Shown: positions 2,207 to 9,856 of the stretch, one piece after another
Layout: every line of letters begins with the position of its first letter
Position numbering within the stretch: the stretch's first letter is position 1
Source: Spongiactinospora gelatinilytica
GTDB lineage: Bacteria > Actinomycetota > Actinomycetes > Streptosporangiales > Streptosporangiaceae
Direction of reading: 5' to 3'
DNA: 43,531 bases
Assembly: GCF_003236385.1 (NCBI RefSeq)
Contig: NZ_POUA01000016.1
Coordinates: 1-43,531 of the forward strand
Program-made: the position numbers and the translations under genes
The notes under the pieces: generated by a model
Database searches by the model: none
The model's input: the letters and a program-made list of their open reading frames with translations, nothing else
What the model was told of the DNA's origin: nothing

Positions 2207-2285
2207 GTCGCATCCCCTCCCCGAAATCGACATCAAGGTCAGGTTCATCCCGCTACCCAGCCGTTCGCGGCATATGCCCAACGCT

Positions 2286-2310
2286 TGACACTGTCATAAT
2301 TACAGTGTCA
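2286..2310. promoter_or_regulatory. Perfect 9-7-9 palindrome between divergent dps and merR
   Basis: TGACACTGT-N7-ACAGTGTCA is a perfect inverted repeat with an AT-rich centre (CATAATT) in an otherwise GC-rich region. TTGACA at 2285-2290, overlapping the left arm, could be a -35 element for the rightward transcript. The merR start lies 11 nt to the right with no ribosome site, so that message is probably leaderless or nearly so. The symmetry and position suggest the operator of the adjacent MerR protein, acting on itself and on dps. That assignment is inference. Confidence 0.65.
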
Positions 2311-2320
2311 CCATCGCGGT

Positions 2321-3265
2321 ATGAGCGAAACCTGGACCCTCGGTGAGCTGGCCGAGCGCGCGGCCGACACGCTGCGCGCCAGGTCCGGCGACGCCGCCGC
2401 CGCGCAGACCGCCCCCGGCGGCCCGGGCAGGGCGGCCCAGGCGGCGAACGGCCGGGTCCGCGAGGTGCCCGGGGCGCGCCTGATCCGGTGGTACACGACG
2501 ATCGGCCTGGTCGATCCGCCGCTCACCCGCCGCGGCCGGATCGCCCTGTACGGGCGACGCCACCTGCTCCAGCTCGTCGCGATCAAACGCCTGCAGGCGG
2601 ACGGCCTGTCGATCGCCGAGATCCAGACCCGGCTGGCGGGGGCCACCGACGCGCACCTCGCCACCGTCGCCCAGGTCCCCCGGCCGCAGGCGGATGAACC
2701 GGAGGGACCATCTCCCCGGCCCGCGCCGCCGGAGCCCGCCAAAGCCCGCCCGCGCTTTTGGGCCGCGCCGCCGTTCCCGGCTCCGGCCCCGAGTCCGACT
2801 CCGCCGGAGCTCGACGGGCAGGCGGCGGGCATGGTCCACGGCGTACGGCTGGCGCACGGCGTGACCGTGCTGCTCGACGGCGCGGGCCGGACACCCGCGC
2901 CCGGCGACCTCGCAGCCATCACCGCCGCCGCCGCGCCACTGCTCGCCGTACTCGCCGAGCGGGGCCTGATCGCCACCGGACCGCCCACAGCGCACCCCAG
3001 CACACAAAGCAGCACAAAAGGCCTAGCGATCCCGATCAACACCAAACCGCCTACCGCGCACCCAGACCGACAAGACAGCGCGAAAGACCCAGCGCATCCG
3101 ATCAACACCAAACCGCCCACAGCGCACCCCGACACACAAAGCAGCGCGAAAGGTCCGGCGGGGCCGATTGGTGCTGGGCGGTGCTCCGTGCGAAGTGGCG
3201 CAGGGGATGCGACTGATCTAGCGGGCCCGACTCACGTCAGCCACTCGGAAGGGAGCACCGCATGA
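2321..3265 (+). CDS. MerR family transcriptional regulator with expanded HTH loop and repeat tail
   Basis: The 314-aa protein has a MerR-type winged HTH. WTLGELAERAADTL forms the first helices, then comes an unusual ~30-residue Ala/Gly-rich insert. RLIRWYTTIGLVDPP, the RRGRIALYGRRHLLQLVAIKRLQ wing and LSIAEIQTRL helix complete the domain by about residue 110. A Pro-rich linker (residues 120-165) leads to a short hydrophobic domain (about 170-220). The protein ends in three 22-residue repeats beginning PPTAHP. The last codon overlaps the VIT/VWA start (ATGA at 3262-3265), so the two are translationally coupled. It probably binds the palindrome just upstream. No effector-binding Cys cluster is visible, so a heavy-metal role is unlikely. 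Confidence 0.85.
   Translation: MSETWTLGELAERAADTLRARSGDAAAAQTAPGGPGRAAQAANGRVREVPGARLIRWYTTIGLVDPPLTRRGRIALYGRRHLLQLVAIKRLQADGLSIAEIQTRLAGATDAHLATVAQVPRPQADEPEGPSPRPAPPEPAKARPRFWAAPPFPAPAPSPTPPELDGQAAGMVHGVRLAHGVTVLLDGAGRTPAPGDLAAITAAAAPLLAVLAERGLIATGPPTAHPSTQSSTKGLAIPINTKPPTAHPDRQDSAKDPAHPINTKPPTAHPDTQSSAKGPAGPIGAGRCSVRSGAGDATDLAGPTHVSHSEGSTA
2981..3178 (+). repeat. Three 66-bp tandem repeats inside the merR gene
   Basis: Units run 2981-3046, 3047-3112 and 3113-3178. Each encodes a 22-residue block starting PPTAHP, with a centre like QSSAKGPA and, in the first two, the ending PINTK. The block is richer in A than its surroundings (runs such as cacacaaagcagc), so its base composition differs from flanking coding DNA. 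Copies are imperfect, and the unit length preserves the reading frame. Confidence 0.9.
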
Positions 3266-5658
3266 TTGTTCCGATCACCCCGCTGCGGCCGGAGGAGTGC
3301 GTCCCTGATCCCGACGCGGGTCTCGGTACGCTGCGCACCGAGCGGGGCAACCTGCCGCTGGAGAGCCTGGACGTCACCGCCGACGTGACCGGCCTGATCG
3401 CCGCCGTCGAGGTGACCCAGGGCTTCCACAACCCGTTCGACCTCCCGCTGGAGGCGACCTACATCTTCCCGCTGCCGCCCAGGGCGGCGGTCACCGCGTT
3501 CCGGATGGAGGCCGACGACCGGGTGGTCGAGGGCCTGCTCAAGGAGCGTGGCCAGGCCCGGGCCGACTACGATCGGGCCATCGCCGAGGGCAGGCGCGCC
3601 GCGATCGCCGAAGAGGACCGGCCCGACGTCTTCAGCATCAGGGTCGGCAACATCGTGCCCGGCGAGAAGGTCCGGGTGCGCCTCACGCTGAGCCAGCCGC
3701 TGCCGTACGAGGACGGCGCCGCGACCTTCCGCTTCCCGCTGGTGGTGGCCCCGCGGTACATCCCGGGCGCGCCGCTGGACGACGCCCCGGCCGGGCCGGG
3801 CGTGGAGCCCGACACCGACGCCGCGCCGGACGCCTCGCGCATCTCGCCGCCGGTGCTGCTGCCCGGGTTTCCCAACCCGGTACGCCTGTCGCTGGCCGTC
3901 AACGTCGATCCGGCCGGGCTGGACCTGCGCGAGATGCGATCCAGCCTGCACGTGGTCTCGATCGACGGCACGAACGTCAGCCTGCGGCCCGGCGAGCGAC
4001 TGGACCGCGACTTCATCCTGCGTCTCGCCTTCGAGACCTCCACGGCGCTCGCCATGGTCCCCGACGACGAGGACGCCGCGAGCGGCGAGGGCACGTTCGC
4101 GCTGACCGTGATGCCGCCGGCCGGCGAGGCCGTGCGGACGCCGCGTGACGTGGTGCTCGTACTCGACCGTTCGGGCAGCATGGGCGGCTGGAAGATGGTC
4201 GCCGCCCGGCGGGCCGCGGCGCGGATCGTGGACACCCTGACCTCGGGCGACCGCTTCGCGGTGCTGTCCTTCGACACCGTCGTGGAGCACCCGGAGCACC
4301 TGCCCGAGGGGCTGGTGGCGGCCACCGACCGCAACCGCTACCGGGCCGTGGAGCATCTGGCCAGGCTGGAGGCGCGGGGCGGCACCGAGATGCTGTCGCC
4401 GATCGAGCGGGCCCTAGGCCTGCTGGCCGACGGCGAGCGCGATCGGGTCCTGGTGCTGGTCACCGACGGCCAGGTCGGCAACGAGGACCAGATCCTGGAG
4501 CGTACCGGCGCCCGGCTGGCGCAGGTACGCGTGCACACCGTGGGCATCGACCGCGCGGTCAACGCCGGGTTCCTCGGCAGGCTGGCCGGGCTCGGCGCGG
4601 GCCGCTGCGAACTGGTGGAGTCGGAGGACCGGCTGGACGAGGCGATGGAGCACATCCACCGGCGGATCGGCGCGCCGCTGGTGACCGACCTGTCGCTGAA
4701 GGCCGACGGGTTCGAGCTGGTCCCCGACACGGTGACCCGGCCGGGGTCGCTGTTCTCCGGGGTGCCGCTTTCGGTCTTCGGCCGCTACCGGGCCGCGAGC
4801 GGCGCGGCGGCCACGCTGACCGTGCGCGGGCTGGCGGCGGGCGGGCGGCCGTGGGAGCGCGAGGTGACCGGCGCGGCCTCCGGCAACCCGGCGGTGCGGG
4901 CCGTGTGGGCGCGGGCGCGGCTGCGCGCGCTGGAGGACCGCTACGCGATGGGCGACCGCGCGCTGGAGGAGACGATCGTCGCGACGTCTCTGAAGTACGG
5001 CGTGCTGTGCAGGTTCACGGCGTTCGTCGCGATCGACACGCGGGTGGTGGCCGAGGGCGGGCCGCAGCACCGCGTCGTGCAGCCGGTGGAACCGCCGAGC
5101 GGATGGGACGCGCCCGCCGCGGGCGGTGGGGGGCAGATCGGGTTCGGCGCGCAGGCCATGGCGGCGTCGTTCGCCCCACAGGCCCCTGGGTCGTTCGGCG
5201 CGCCCGAGGGGTTCGCCGGTGCGCCGGCCCAGGGCCGGGCCTTCCCCGCGCCGGCGGCGCCCGGCCCGCGGCCGCAGCGCGGCTTCACCGCCCCGGTGCG
5301 GCCGGTGCCGCACGCGTTCGAGTCGGTACGGCCGCAGTTGGTCTCCGAACTGGAACGGCTGCGCGCCGCCGAGTCGCTGCCCGATCCCGCGCTGGCGGGG
5401 TACCTGGCCGACCTCGGCAGCCGCCTGGCGGTCCTGGCCGGGCACCTCGGCGGCCACCAGGAGCTGGCCGACCTGGCCAGAAACCTCGTGGCGGCCGAAG
5501 TCCCGGGCGCGGACCCGCGCGGTCTGTGGCGGCGCGCGTTCACCCTGCTGACCCGCCTCAGCGGCGGCGACACACCGGCCCCGGGCGCGCTCGGCACCCA
5601 TCGCCGCCCCAACGACGGCGGCGCCCGCACCTCCCGCGCCTTCTGGAAGCGCCCCTGA
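3262..5658 (+). CDS. VIT and von Willebrand factor A domain protein
   Basis: The 798-aa protein has a VIT domain at about residues 15-170 (VTGLIAAVEVTQGFHNPFDLP, ATYIFPLPP, FSIRVGNIVPGEKVRV). A VWA domain follows at about 295-470, with a complete metal-ion-dependent adhesion motif DRSGSMGG starting at Asp302, a GGTEM Thr loop near residue 375 and LVTDGQVGNE. A beta-rich region and a long Gly/Pro/Ala linker (about 610-690) precede a C-terminal helical domain. There is no signal peptide or membrane segment, so it is probably cytoplasmic. VIT/VWA proteins are thought to be assembly or interaction scaffolds. The gene overlaps merR by 4 bp and ends at a strong hairpin. The exact role is unknown. 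Confidence 0.9.
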   Translation: MIVPITPLRPEECVPDPDAGLGTLRTERGNLPLESLDVTADVTGLIAAVEVTQGFHNPFDLPLEATYIFPLPPRAAVTAFRMEADDRVVEGLLKERGQARADYDRAIAEGRRAAIAEEDRPDVFSIRVGNIVPGEKVRVRLTLSQPLPYEDGAATFRFPLVVAPRYIPGAPLDDAPAGPGVEPDTDAAPDASRISPPVLLPGFPNPVRLSLAVNVDPAGLDLREMRSSLHVVSIDGTNVSLRPGERLDRDFILRLAFETSTALAMVPDDEDAASGEGTFALTVMPPAGEAVRTPRDVVLVLDRSGSMGGWKMVAARRAAARIVDTLTSGDRFAVLSFDTVVEHPEHLPEGLVAATDRNRYRAVEHLARLEARGGTEMLSPIERALGLLADGERDRVLVLVTDGQVGNEDQILERTGARLAQVRVHTVGIDRAVNAGFLGRLAGLGAGRCELVESEDRLDEAMEHIHRRIGAPLVTDLSLKADGFELVPDTVTRPGSLFSGVPLSVFGRYRAASGAAATLTVRGLAAGGRPWEREVTGAASGNPAVRAVWARARLRALEDRYAMGDRALEETIVATSLKYGVLCRFTAFVAIDTRVVAEGGPQHRVVQPVEPPSGWDAPAAGGGGQIGFGAQAMAASFAPQAPGSFGAPEGFAGAPAQGRAFPAPAAPGPRPQRGFTAPVRPVPHAFESVRPQLVSELERLRAAESLPDPALAGYLADLGSRLAVLAGHLGGHQELADLARNLVAAEVPGADPRGLWRRAFTLLTRLSGGDTPAPGALGTHRRPNDGGARTSRAFWKRP

Positions 5659-5678: not shown

Positions 5679-5715
5679 CGTCCCTCACTCCCGGGGTCGC
5701 CGGGAGTGAGGGACG
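5679..5715. terminator. 16-bp hairpin between convergent VIT/VWA and protease 1
   Basis: A perfect 16-bp stem (5679-5694 with 5700-5715, tccctcactcccgg arm) encloses a 5-nt loop. It lies between two convergent stops and can end transcription from both sides. No U-tract follows, which is common in actinomycetes. An almost identical hairpin follows the second protease at 9819-9856. Confidence 0.8.
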
Positions 5716-5762: not shown

Positions 5763-8700
5763 TCAGCGGCGGGCGTAGGCGCGGATCACCTCTTGGGAGA
5801 GGCTGTTCCCGCGCTGGTCGGTGGCCTTGAGGCGGAGGGAGACGAACTCGCCCCCGGGGCGGCCGAGCCTGGCCTCGTAGGTGTTGCCGCCCTTGGCGCG
5901 CAGGCGGGCAACGGGCCGCCAGGTGGCGCCGTCGTCGTAGGAGACCTCCAGGGACACGTCCTTGATCCGGGCGGGGTCCGAGCCGCGCTGGTGGTACAGC
6001 CGCAGCCCGAACTGGTCGCCCCTGGCCCGGTTCCTGATGTCCACGGGCACGTCGTACTCGGCCAGCAGCAACGGCACCACCATGGTCGCGTCACCCTCCG
6101 GGCGCTGCGAGCCGAACGTCCATTCCGCCCGGGTCCTGGTGGACAACTGGACGTACGGTCCGGGCGTGCGGATCTCGTACTCGATCCGGTAGTCCATCCG
6201 CTGCGCCGGCAGGGCGATGGTGCCCGCCGGAGTGGCCTCGGTCTCGGCGACCAGCGTCTCGCCTCGGTACAGGCGGAAGTCGCTCGTCGTCGCGCCCGGG
6301 AAGTGGCCCGTGCTCGTGGTCCCGGTGTTGCCGTGCGCGTCCACGTACGCCTGCATGTCCACATAAAGCAGGTCGCCCGTCCTGCGCAACTGGTCGTACC
6401 GCCGCACGCCCGGCGCCATCGGCTGCCTGAACCAGTCCAGCTCGCTCCGCTCCCCCGCCGACAGCGACCGGTTGGTGAACTCCGACAGCGCGATCCGCGG
6501 CACGTCCTTCGGCTGCCAGATGACGTTGTAGTTGCGCTCCGGCGCGACCGCCATCGCCTCCCAGGTCACCTTGGGGTCGGCGGTGACGTAGTCCACCCGG
6601 GTGCGCGGCGCGTACTGCGCGTGCCAGGAGTCGTAGGAGCCGTCCTCCCAGGGCTGCCAGCCGAACCGGGTCTCCGACAGGACCACCTTGTCGGTGAGCT
6701 GGGTCCGGTACGTGGTCTTCACCGTGGCCATCGATCTCGGCCGCACGGTGTACTCCAGCCTGGCCGGGATGCGCCCCTCCTCGCGCTCGTAGACCTCGTA
6801 GGCGTAGGGGCTGGCCACGACGCCAGTGGCGAGGACGACGACGGGGATCTTGCGCATCCGCTCCAGCAGCCGCAGGCCCTCCTCGTGGGTCAGCCGCAGG
6901 GTCGGGACGGACAGCCGCGTCCCGGTGCCGGGGAACACCGGGTCCACGCCGGGCGTGCCACTGTAGATCGCCACCAGCTTGGCGCCCGCCGCCGCGGCGG
7001 CGTTGGACTGCGCGGCGACCGTGGCCGAAGGGTCCCGGCGGACCAGCGCGAGCCTGCCCCGCAGGTTCTTGCCCGCGAGGTCCTTGGCGGTGGCGCGCCC
7101 GGCGTCGGCGGCCAGGAGCAGCGCGTTGCCGTCCAGGCGCGGGAACTGGGTGGTGTCGTCGCTGAACCACACCGAGTCGTAGTAACGCGGGTCGAGTTCG
7201 ACGCCGGGCGTCCGCAGGGTGATCTGCGGCGCGGTCAGCCGCCACCTGCTCGCGAACCCGAACTCGCCCTTGGTCACCCGCCGGGTCGGCGTCGCGAAGA
7301 GCCGCTCCTCCTGGCTGCCCGCGGGCAGGTAGGAGTCCACGTTGTCCGGGCCCTTCTCCGGGGCCCGGTGCCAGGTCAGCTTGGTGGCTCCGCTCGGACC
7401 GGCCTGGGCGTCCCGGTGCGGGGTGTCGATCTTGATCTCGGCGCCCTTGCGGGCGTCGAGGACCACTTCGGTGTCGCCGGTGACCTTCACCTCGGGGTCG
7501 CCGGCGAAAGTGGCGTTCAGGACGTTGCCGCGCATGCCGTCGTCGAAGGGGTCCAGGCTCGGGTGGACGGTGGTGACCCGCCCCAGCACGGAGTAGGTGC
7601 CGGGCAGGACCCGTACGCACGAACCGGGGACGCTCCCGCCGTCGCACCACTGGACCGGGTCGCCGGGCAGCGCGCGGCCGTGCAGCCCGCCGTCGGCCAC
7701 GTTGACGATGTTGACCACGGACCTGGTCACCCGGCCGTCCCTGGCGATCGGCACGACCTTCAGCTCTGCCCGCTCGGGCTCGGCGTTGGCGGTCAGCAGC
7801 GTGCGCAGCGCGGGGCCGCCGGCGGTCTTGGCGACGAGTTCGGTGCGCTGCCACCCGGCCTCGGCCCTGGCCGGGTCAAGGGTGACGGTCACCTGGCCGG
7901 TGCCGCCGGCGGGCAGGTCGAGCCGGGGCGGGGCGACGCTGAACGCGCCGCCCGCGGTGAGGTCGAGCGTGACCGGCGCGGCCGAGGGGTTGCGGTAGGT
8001 CACCGTACGGGCGACCGGCTCGCCCTTCGGGATCACCACGAGCCCGAAGCCCACCGATCCCGACGATGCCTGGACCGGCTGGGCGAGCGCGGCGGCGACG
8101 TCGATCCGGCCGGCGCCCTGCTTGTCGGCGGGGACATCGGCGGCCGGCTTGGCGGTGCCCATGAGCAGCGACTTCAGTTCGGCGGCGGTGATCCCGGGCC
8201 GGGCCTGGCGCAGCAGCGCGGCGGCGCCGGCGACGTGCGGGGTGGCCATGGAGGTGCCGGAGATCCTGGTGTAGGTGGCGTCCACCGGCTCGCCGAGCCG
8301 GGTGCCCTTCGCCCTGGCCGCGATCACGCCCACGCCGGGCGCGGTGACGTCGGGCTTGACCGCGCGCTGCATGCCGACCGGCCCGAAGCTGGAGAAATCG
8401 GCGAGCCGGTCCTGGCCGTCCACCGCGCCGACGGTCAGGGCCTCCGGAGCGTCGCCGGGGCTGCCGACGCACGCCTGACAGCCGGAGTTGCCGGCCGCCA
8501 CCACGAACAGCGTGCCGTACCTGCGGCTGAGGTCGCCCACCGCCTCGGTGAGCGGCCCGCCGGGCTCCGCGGTGCCAAGGCTCATGTTGACGACGTCGGC
8601 GTGCTGCTCGGCCGCCGCCCACTCCATGCCCGCGATGATCCAGGAGGCGAATCCCATTCCGCCGCCGTCGAGGACCCGGCCGCTGATCAGCTTCGCGCCG

Positions 8701-9608
8701 GGCGCGACGCCCTTGCGCGCGCCGCCCGAGCCCTGGCCGCTGCCGCCGAGGGTGGCGGCGACGTGCGTGCCGTGCCCGTGCTGGTCGCCCTCGCCCGTCT
8801 CGGTGAAGTCCTTCTCGGCGGCGATCCGCCCGGCGAGGTCGGGGTGCCCGGCGTCCACGCCGCTGTCCAGGACCGCGACGGTGGTGCCGGTCCCGTCGAA
8901 TCCGGCCGCCCAGGCGGCGGGCGCGCCGATCTGCGGCACGCTGTGGTCAAGTACCGAGCCGACCTTGCGGTCCAGCCAGATCTTCCGCACGCCGTCCAGC
9001 GGGGTCGCGGCCTTGGTACGGCCGGACGCGGCCAGCCTGGACAGCGCGCCGCCGAAGCCGGCCGCCTTGGCCTTGTCCAGGCTCGCCCCCGCCCCGCCGA
9101 TGCTGGACAGGGCACGCACCCGGTCGAGTTGCGGGACCGCCGCCCTGGCGGCGGCCCCGGCGTTCTCGGCGTAGGTGAGGATGAGCGGGATGGAGCCGGA
9201 CCCGGCGTCGGTGTGCCCCTCTTCGGCCAGCGTGGTCACGTTGAACAGCTCGGGGTCCAGACGTTCGGGGATGAGCCCGAGCATGTCGTTGGGGTAGACG
9301 TACGTGTCGCCGTCGCGTTGCTGGACGCGGAACCCGGAGGGCAGGCCGTTCCCCCGCCTGGCGGGCGTGACCGTGGCGGCACTTCGGCCGCCGGCCGACT
9401 CGGTGACGTGTACACGGTCACCGGTGATCAGGGTGACGTCGTAGGAGCGCTGCCCTGCGGTGAGCCCCTGGGCTGGGGGAACGCTGAGCGCCGCCGCGCC
9501 CGTCCCGGTGAGCATCGTGGCGGCCACCGCGGTGGCCAGCGAGACGGTGGTGACGGACACGGTCAGGGCGGCACGACGCCAGCGCGGCGATCCCGGCCGG
9601 AGGCCCAT
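5763..9608 (-). CDS. Secreted subtilisin-like serine protease (S8), paralogue 1
   Basis: The 1281-aa preproprotein starts with an Arg-rich N-terminus and a hydrophobic stretch ending near GTGAAALS, a Sec-type signal. A pro-region follows, with VTLITGDRVHV, typical of large actinobacterial subtilases. The S8 triad is complete: Asp248 (VAVLDSGVDAGHPDL), His279 (HGHGTHVA) and Ser453 (SGTSMATPHVAG), with oxyanion Asn374 (AAGNSGCQAC). Residues 830-920 resemble a protease-associated segment (GRLALVRRDPSATVAAQSNAAAAAGA), and beta-sandwich-like repeats follow. ATG 9608 is chosen because GGAGG (9615-9619) sits 6 nt upstream; a TTG 15 nt earlier overlaps that site. It is nearly collinear with the protease at 9904. 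The substrate is unknown. Confidence 0.95.
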   Translation of the reverse strand: MGLRPGSPRWRRAALTVSVTTVSLATAVAATMLTGTGAAALSVPPAQGLTAGQRSYDVTLITGDRVHVTESAGGRSAATVTPARRGNGLPSGFRVQQRDGDTYVYPNDMLGLIPERLDPELFNVTTLAEEGHTDAGSGSIPLILTYAENAGAAARAAVPQLDRVRALSSIGGAGASLDKAKAAGFGGALSRLAASGRTKAATPLDGVRKIWLDRKVGSVLDHSVPQIGAPAAWAAGFDGTGTTVAVLDSGVDAGHPDLAGRIAAEKDFTETGEGDQHGHGTHVAATLGGSGQGSGGARKGVAPGAKLISGRVLDGGGMGFASWIIAGMEWAAAEQHADVVNMSLGTAEPGGPLTEAVGDLSRRYGTLFVVAAGNSGCQACVGSPGDAPEALTVGAVDGQDRLADFSSFGPVGMQRAVKPDVTAPGVGVIAARAKGTRLGEPVDATYTRISGTSMATPHVAGAAALLRQARPGITAAELKSLLMGTAKPAADVPADKQGAGRIDVAAALAQPVQASSGSVGFGLVVIPKGEPVARTVTYRNPSAAPVTLDLTAGGAFSVAPPRLDLPAGGTGQVTVTLDPARAEAGWQRTELVAKTAGGPALRTLLTANAEPERAELKVVPIARDGRVTRSVVNIVNVADGGLHGRALPGDPVQWCDGGSVPGSCVRVLPGTYSVLGRVTTVHPSLDPFDDGMRGNVLNATFAGDPEVKVTGDTEVVLDARKGAEIKIDTPHRDAQAGPSGATKLTWHRAPEKGPDNVDSYLPAGSQEERLFATPTRRVTKGEFGFASRWRLTAPQITLRTPGVELDPRYYDSVWFSDDTTQFPRLDGNALLLAADAGRATAKDLAGKNLRGRLALVRRDPSATVAAQSNAAAAAGAKLVAIYSGTPGVDPVFPGTGTRLSVPTLRLTHEEGLRLLERMRKIPVVVLATGVVASPYAYEVYEREEGRIPARLEYTVRPRSMATVKTTYRTQLTDKVVLSETRFGWQPWEDGSYDSWHAQYAPRTRVDYVTADPKVTWEAMAVAPERNYNVIWQPKDVPRIALSEFTNRSLSAGERSELDWFRQPMAPGVRRYDQLRRTGDLLYVDMQAYVDAHGNTGTTSTGHFPGATTSDFRLYRGETLVAETEATPAGTIALPAQRMDYRIEYEIRTPGPYVQLSTRTRAEWTFGSQRPEGDATMVVPLLLAEYDVPVDIRNRARGDQFGLRLYHQRGSDPARIKDVSLEVSYDDGATWRPVARLRAKGGNTYEARLGRPGGEFVSLRLKATDQRGNSLSQEVIRAYARR

Positions 9609-9695
9609 TGGCAACCTCCACAAAAGGGGGAAAAGATCGTCCTAATTCCTAATCGCCTGGACATCCGGCTGTCCACGTCCGGACATGGCGAAGAC

Positions 9696-9818: not shown

Positions 9819-9856
9819 CGTCCCTCACTCCCGGGGTCTACCGGGAGTGAGGGACG
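9819..9856. terminator. 16-bp hairpin after protease 2
   Basis: A perfect 16-bp stem (9819-9834 with 9841-9856) encloses a 6-nt loop. It is the same element as at 5679-5715 apart from the loop. It lies 3' of the second protease (minus strand) and marks the left edge of the right duplication copy. Confidence 0.8.

Follow-up and report, generated by a model that had tools for sequence, protein, structure and literature searches.

The stretch of DNA analyzed here (the window) is 43,531 bp long, has a G+C content of 73% and originates from Spongiactinospora gelatinilytica. A dps gene on the minus strand (1739-2206) and a merR gene on the plus strand (2321-3265) diverge from a gap of 114 bp, which is bounded by the dps ATG at 2206 and the merR ATG at 2321. 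The merR gene is followed on the same strand by a gene for a VIT/VWA protein (3262-5658). The two overlap by 4 nt (ATGA, 3262-3265), and this overlap is kept in most loci. The dps product is ferritin-like (PF00210, 75.2 bits); among solved structures, those of the 2z90 type are closest to it (PDB 2z90/8hwz). GGAGGGG precedes the dps ATG. Farther downstream, near-identical long inverted repeats (GTCCCTCACTCCCGGGGTC..CCGGGAGTGAGGGAC) at 5679-5715 and 9820-9855 lie on both sides of an S8 peptidase gene (5763-9623) and are candidate terminators or element ends.

The MerR protein belongs to the MerR family, with a PF13411 (MerR_1) score of 43.1 bits against a cut-off of 21.6; all 28 homologues examined (28/28) match this family as well. 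Alignments and the AlphaFold model of the homologue from locus L033 (mean pLDDT 85) delimit a winged helix-turn-helix (wHTH), a helix, a disordered linker of variable length and a separate, conserved C-terminal beta-beta-alpha domain of about 50 amino acids. Matches of the model to PDB folds were weak, with none below E 0.001 over approximately 60 to 105 aligned columns, and are consistent with a contribution of the wHTH part alone. No conserved cysteine was found in the alignment of the MerR homologues, and the usual metal sensing is therefore unlikely. Linker and tail vary widely in length among the homologues, and in the window tandem peptide repeats of the type INTKPPTAHPD.QSSAKGPA are encoded at 2985-3150, after the C-terminal domain.

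The partner protein contains a VIT domain (PF08487, 121.5 bits) and VWA families with the MIDAS residues in a DRSGS motif, and has no obvious signal peptide. It scored 388.8 bits with the model for marine sortase-target proteins (TIGR03788), below the cut-off of 551.65 bits. A domain search identified MerR as the sole DNA-binding protein of the pair. The translational coupling of the two genes suggests that their products act together, and modulation of MerR by the VIT/VWA protein is a working hypothesis. An apparent gene fusion of the pair in locus L097 was an artefact of a run of N, and the reading as a defense system was dropped as no PADLOC match was obtained. No relevant publications on MerR with VIT/VWA were found in the open-access literature searched.

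The earlier note had described a perfect 9-7-9 palindrome in the divergent gap, and this description was borne out. Positions 2286-2310 read TGACACTGT-CATAATT-ACAGTGTCA, a 25-bp dyad without strand (TGACACTGTCATAATTACAGTGTCA) with two perfect 9-nt arms around a 7-nt core; counted over all 12 possible pairs, 11 match. When the 114-bp gap was randomized under a Markov (dinucleotide) model, 0.3% of the versions contained a perfect 9-bp inverted repeat with arms at most 15 nt apart. Elsewhere in the window, perfect 9-bp inverted repeats abound, with about 16 expected; these are GC-rich hairpins. With up to three mismatches allowed, the dyad is the sole match in the 8.05-Mb genome. No extra operators were detected elsewhere in this genome, in 151 genomes of the family or in a Nonomuraea set (n=55). 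A chance origin of the dyad is excluded by its conservation across loci.

A query with the VIT/VWA protein returned 80 loci, nearly all of them from Streptosporangiaceae, and a query with the MerR protein returned more; the aligned set with the site comprises 91 loci that have both merR and the VIT/VWA gene. In almost every locus of Streptosporangiaceae, a 25-bp site resembling TGACASTGYMAYNRTKRCAGTGTMA precedes the merR start codon by 10 bp, and the distance to the ATG is exactly 10 nt in 83 of the 91 aligned loci. On the dps side the information content drops sharply just past the T that precedes the site. The site was present in 87 of the 151 Streptosporangiaceae genomes, with no second copy in any of them; in Nonomuraea (the genus of G005) 51 of 55 genomes had a single copy, including genomes as large as 14 Mb. 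Every site that was fetched (30/30) was located at merR. Outside Streptosporangiaceae, the site accompanies merR-VIT/VWA in at least two further families of the class. Among 395 genomes from the whole class it was found in 25 of 27 merR-positive and in 3 of 368 merR-negative genomes, the latter three being imperfect; in the two merR-positive exceptions (G295 and G458) the units are rearranged. The corresponding Fisher test (p ~5e-34) is inflated by relatedness, and the pattern holds across families. In a set of 37 genomes (G000-G036) the site accompanied merR in 19 of 20 cases and was absent from all 17 genomes without merR (0/17); the one exception, G021, carries a 9-6-9 version. Absence of the palindrome upstream of homologous merR-VIT/VWA pairs had been set beforehand as grounds for rejection, and the palindrome is conserved there.

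Comparison of the loci resolves the 9-7-9 palindrome into two 11-bp dyads of the form TGACA-S-TGTCA with centers 14 bp apart. Neither has a strand; the left unit is TGACA-C-TGTCA (2286-2296) and the right unit is TTACA-G-TGTCA (2300-2310), which matches in 10 of 11 positions. The pair 6/20 demanded by the 9-7-9 form is broken in 43% of the loci because position 6, freely C or G, is the center of the left unit; its 9-7-9 partner, position 20, is nearly always G. In loci L168 and L169 two such units are 21 bp apart in place of 14 bp. The presence of a separate dyad in each half and the altered spacing in these two loci make the 11-mer the likely true binding unit of the site. The operator region of locus L166 contains three near-units with spacings of 14 and 13 bp.

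The families f6 and f19 show further variants. In f19, merR and the VIT/VWA gene diverge around a perfect 31-bp palindrome and dps is missing, so the site follows both merR and the VIT/VWA gene. The palindrome of three loci (L161, L162 and L164) has TTGACA-18-CAAGAT on both strands and is thus a fully symmetric two-way promoter/operator. All nine loci of f6 and f19 (L161-L169, 9/9) possess a further 11-mer, TGACASTGTCA with 10 or 11 of 11 matches, in the 3' part of merR at 464-741 bp from the main operator. It lies in codons for D-[ST]-V-T that usually end in T, which is unusual in such GC-rich genes, and its placement suggests a second operator with DNA looping. The intragenic 11-mer is absent from merR of Streptosporangiaceae. 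Auxiliary 11-mers in that family were also considered and rejected; their number, 4 in 1.1 Mb including one that belongs to the L019 operator, is near the counts for control dyads.

The site coincides with the putative merR promoter on the plus strand. The -35 hexamer TTGACA (2285-2290), present in 87 of 91 loci, overlaps the left arm, and the presumed -10 hexamer is CACCAT (2309-2314; NANNNT), whose A2 and T6 are kept in 89 of the 91 loci. The geometry over the 91 loci is TTGACA, an 18-bp spacer (nearly all loci; 17 bp in G021), NANNNT, 6 nt and ATG. In 83 of the 91 loci this geometry places the predicted transcription start on the merR start codon. The transcript is accordingly predicted to be leaderless, which would explain the constant spacing between site and ATG. 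A generic promoter scan did not report the merR promoter because its -10 hexamer is far from TATAAT.

Both the co-occurrence of the site with the regulator gene and its position on the putative promoter of that gene are as expected for an autoregulatory operator. We consider it quite probable that the dyad is the operator through which the MerR regulator represses its own gene and the translationally coupled VIT/VWA gene, and that dps depends mainly on a stress-sigma promoter of its own. MerR dimers would bind both 11-bp units. These overlap the -35 and extend as far as the -10 of the predicted leaderless promoter of sigma-70 type, so the bound protein should block access of RNA polymerase and thereby repress both merR and the VIT/VWA gene. 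Repression may be lifted via the C-terminal domain of MerR, either by a signal or by the VIT/VWA protein. The module would be self-contained, with one site per genome. Since merR and the VIT/VWA gene travel together, co-occurrence alone does not tell which of the two proteins needs the site. The 21-bp spacing of the units in L168 and L169 does not fit the same promoter geometry and counts against this reading.

Classical MerR activator promoters have a spacer of 19-20 bp with the operator in the spacer region (PMC5859096). Were the present regulator of this type, bound MerR would keep the promoter inactive until a ligand causes untwisting of the DNA and switches on merR-VIT/VWA. The operator does lie between and over the -35 and -10, as in those promoters, and repression and activation are not distinguishable from the sequence. 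However, the spacer of 18 bp (17 bp in G021) is nearer the normal 17 than 19-20 bp, which favors plain repression; in addition there are two 1-bp-centered dyads instead of one spaced dyad, and no cysteine is among the conserved residues of MerR. Activation of the classical kind is therefore regarded as rather unlikely.

The classical activators MerR, CueR, SoxR and BmrR share with the regulator of the window the wHTH family, an operator inside the core promoter and autoregulation (predicted here), but differ in spacer length, conserved cysteines and C-terminal domain; the CueR model gave 22.6 bits with the window protein, far below its cut-off of 147.4 bits. A parallel may also be drawn to CvkR (Alr3614) of Anabaena, a leaderless MerR-type repressor of a type V-K CAST which acts from the dyad ACATnATGT with a 1-bp center (PMC9938897). 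Both have a MerR wHTH, a leaderless gene (predicted here) and a 1-bp-centered dyad like TGACA-S-TGTCA, and CvkR (7xn2) was the best PDB fold match to the MerR model, though a weak one (E 0.014, TM 0.34). Sequence motif and target are different, and the system of the window combines two dyads, spaced by 14 bp, with a VIT/VWA partner and a C-terminal domain of another kind. BldC of Streptomyces, a protein of 68 aa which consists of the wHTH only and binds AATT-type direct repeats at many sites (PMC5859096), is likewise MerR-like, actinobacterial and a binder of repeated elements (binding being predicted here), whereas the window regulator carries a further domain and has a single site in each genome. 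The proposed operator is ordinary in kind and, like the MerR-VIT/VWA operon, apparently undescribed.

The earlier note had also proposed that the site is shared, with bound MerR repressing or activating dps as well, in one iron/oxidative stress module. The assignment of the site to the MerR/VIT-VWA pair is supported, also by its conservation upstream of such pairs; a role of dps as a co-target is not supported. Divergent dps is close to the site in 68 of 93 loci, and dps has remained the neighbor in Sphaerisporangium (6/6) and in Streptosporangium (8/8) although some other neighbors are scrambled there, so a positional influence of the site on dps is possible. In Nonomuraea, however, a homocysteine-methyltransferase-like gene and other neighbors are as syntenic as dps. 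About a quarter of the loci have no adjacent dps and yet keep the site, which is equally conserved in 22 dps-unlinked and 69 dps-linked loci; no close dps homologue was found in five genomes with the site (G015, G024, G036, G090 and G162), and the f19 version between divergent merR and VIT/VWA genes likewise stands without dps. No site was found at unlinked dps genes. The possibility that the reverse strand of the operator contains a dps promoter was considered and rejected, as no dps-specific signature was seen: position -3 is A in 45% of the dps-linked and 73% of the unlinked loci, and no dps-facing -10 is enriched in linked loci.

Separate promoter motifs for dps were found between the site and the dps start, at variable distance from the site. 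A SigB-like GGKTA occurs in 30 of 62 dps-linked gaps (12.7 expected) and an ECF-like GGAAG-N17-19-GTT in 25 of 62 (0.3 expected); neither type is present in 28 of 88 gaps of an enlarged set, and the assignment of dps promoters is incomplete to this extent. In the window, GGGTAG (2253-2258, minus strand) is a candidate -10 of SigB type for a promoter of dps itself, without a convincing -35. The dpsA gene of S. coelicolor has a SigB-like promoter (SigB consensus GGGTAC/G), which the GGGTAG upstream of dps resembles, but no MerR gene or operator was reported there (PMC3184153). The dps gaps of Nonomuraea and others (for example L087, L102 and L103) contain GGAAG-N18-GTT, resembling an ECF (SigR-like) promoter, and those of other genera the GGGTA type (SigB-like), an apparent switch of the sigma factor between genera as judged from these motifs. 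The distance from the operator to the GGAAG (-35) of the ECF-type promoters falls into two groups (2-7 and 11-15 nt) with no value of 8-10 nt, and jumps by about one helical turn on the tree, which would favor a shared operator. Helical phasing appeared striking at 25 loci; at 34 loci the distribution was bimodal with similar concentration for periods 9 to 11, so that the helical period does not stand out. As the site neither depends on dps nor recurs at dps genes, dps is probably a bystander with its own stress-type promoter, and direct control of dps as a function of the site is possible but unlikely. The reading as an iron/oxidative stress module depends entirely on the dps link.

TGACA-N-TGTCA dyads are plausible for other repressor families too, but a regulator of the TetR, GntR or similar type, beside which the proximity of merR would be incidental, is very improbable, as, in several families, genomes with merR have the site and those without merR lack it, and further sites would be expected for a regulator encoded elsewhere.

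In a more far-reaching version, which is speculative and unlikely to hold as a whole, the cytosolic VIT/VWA protein would be the co-regulator or sensor of a leaderless two-dyad MerR repressor, with an intragenic second operator acting by looping in some families and dps recruited in Streptosporangiaceae. If dps shared the switch, the VIT/VWA proteins would be linked to protection from stress; the evidence obtained here argues against this. Bacterial VIT/VWA proteins of this kind have been assigned no role in the open-access papers searched. The strictly conserved, single-target MerR switch tells when the pair is made, and its promoter and operator provide a ready handle on these proteins.
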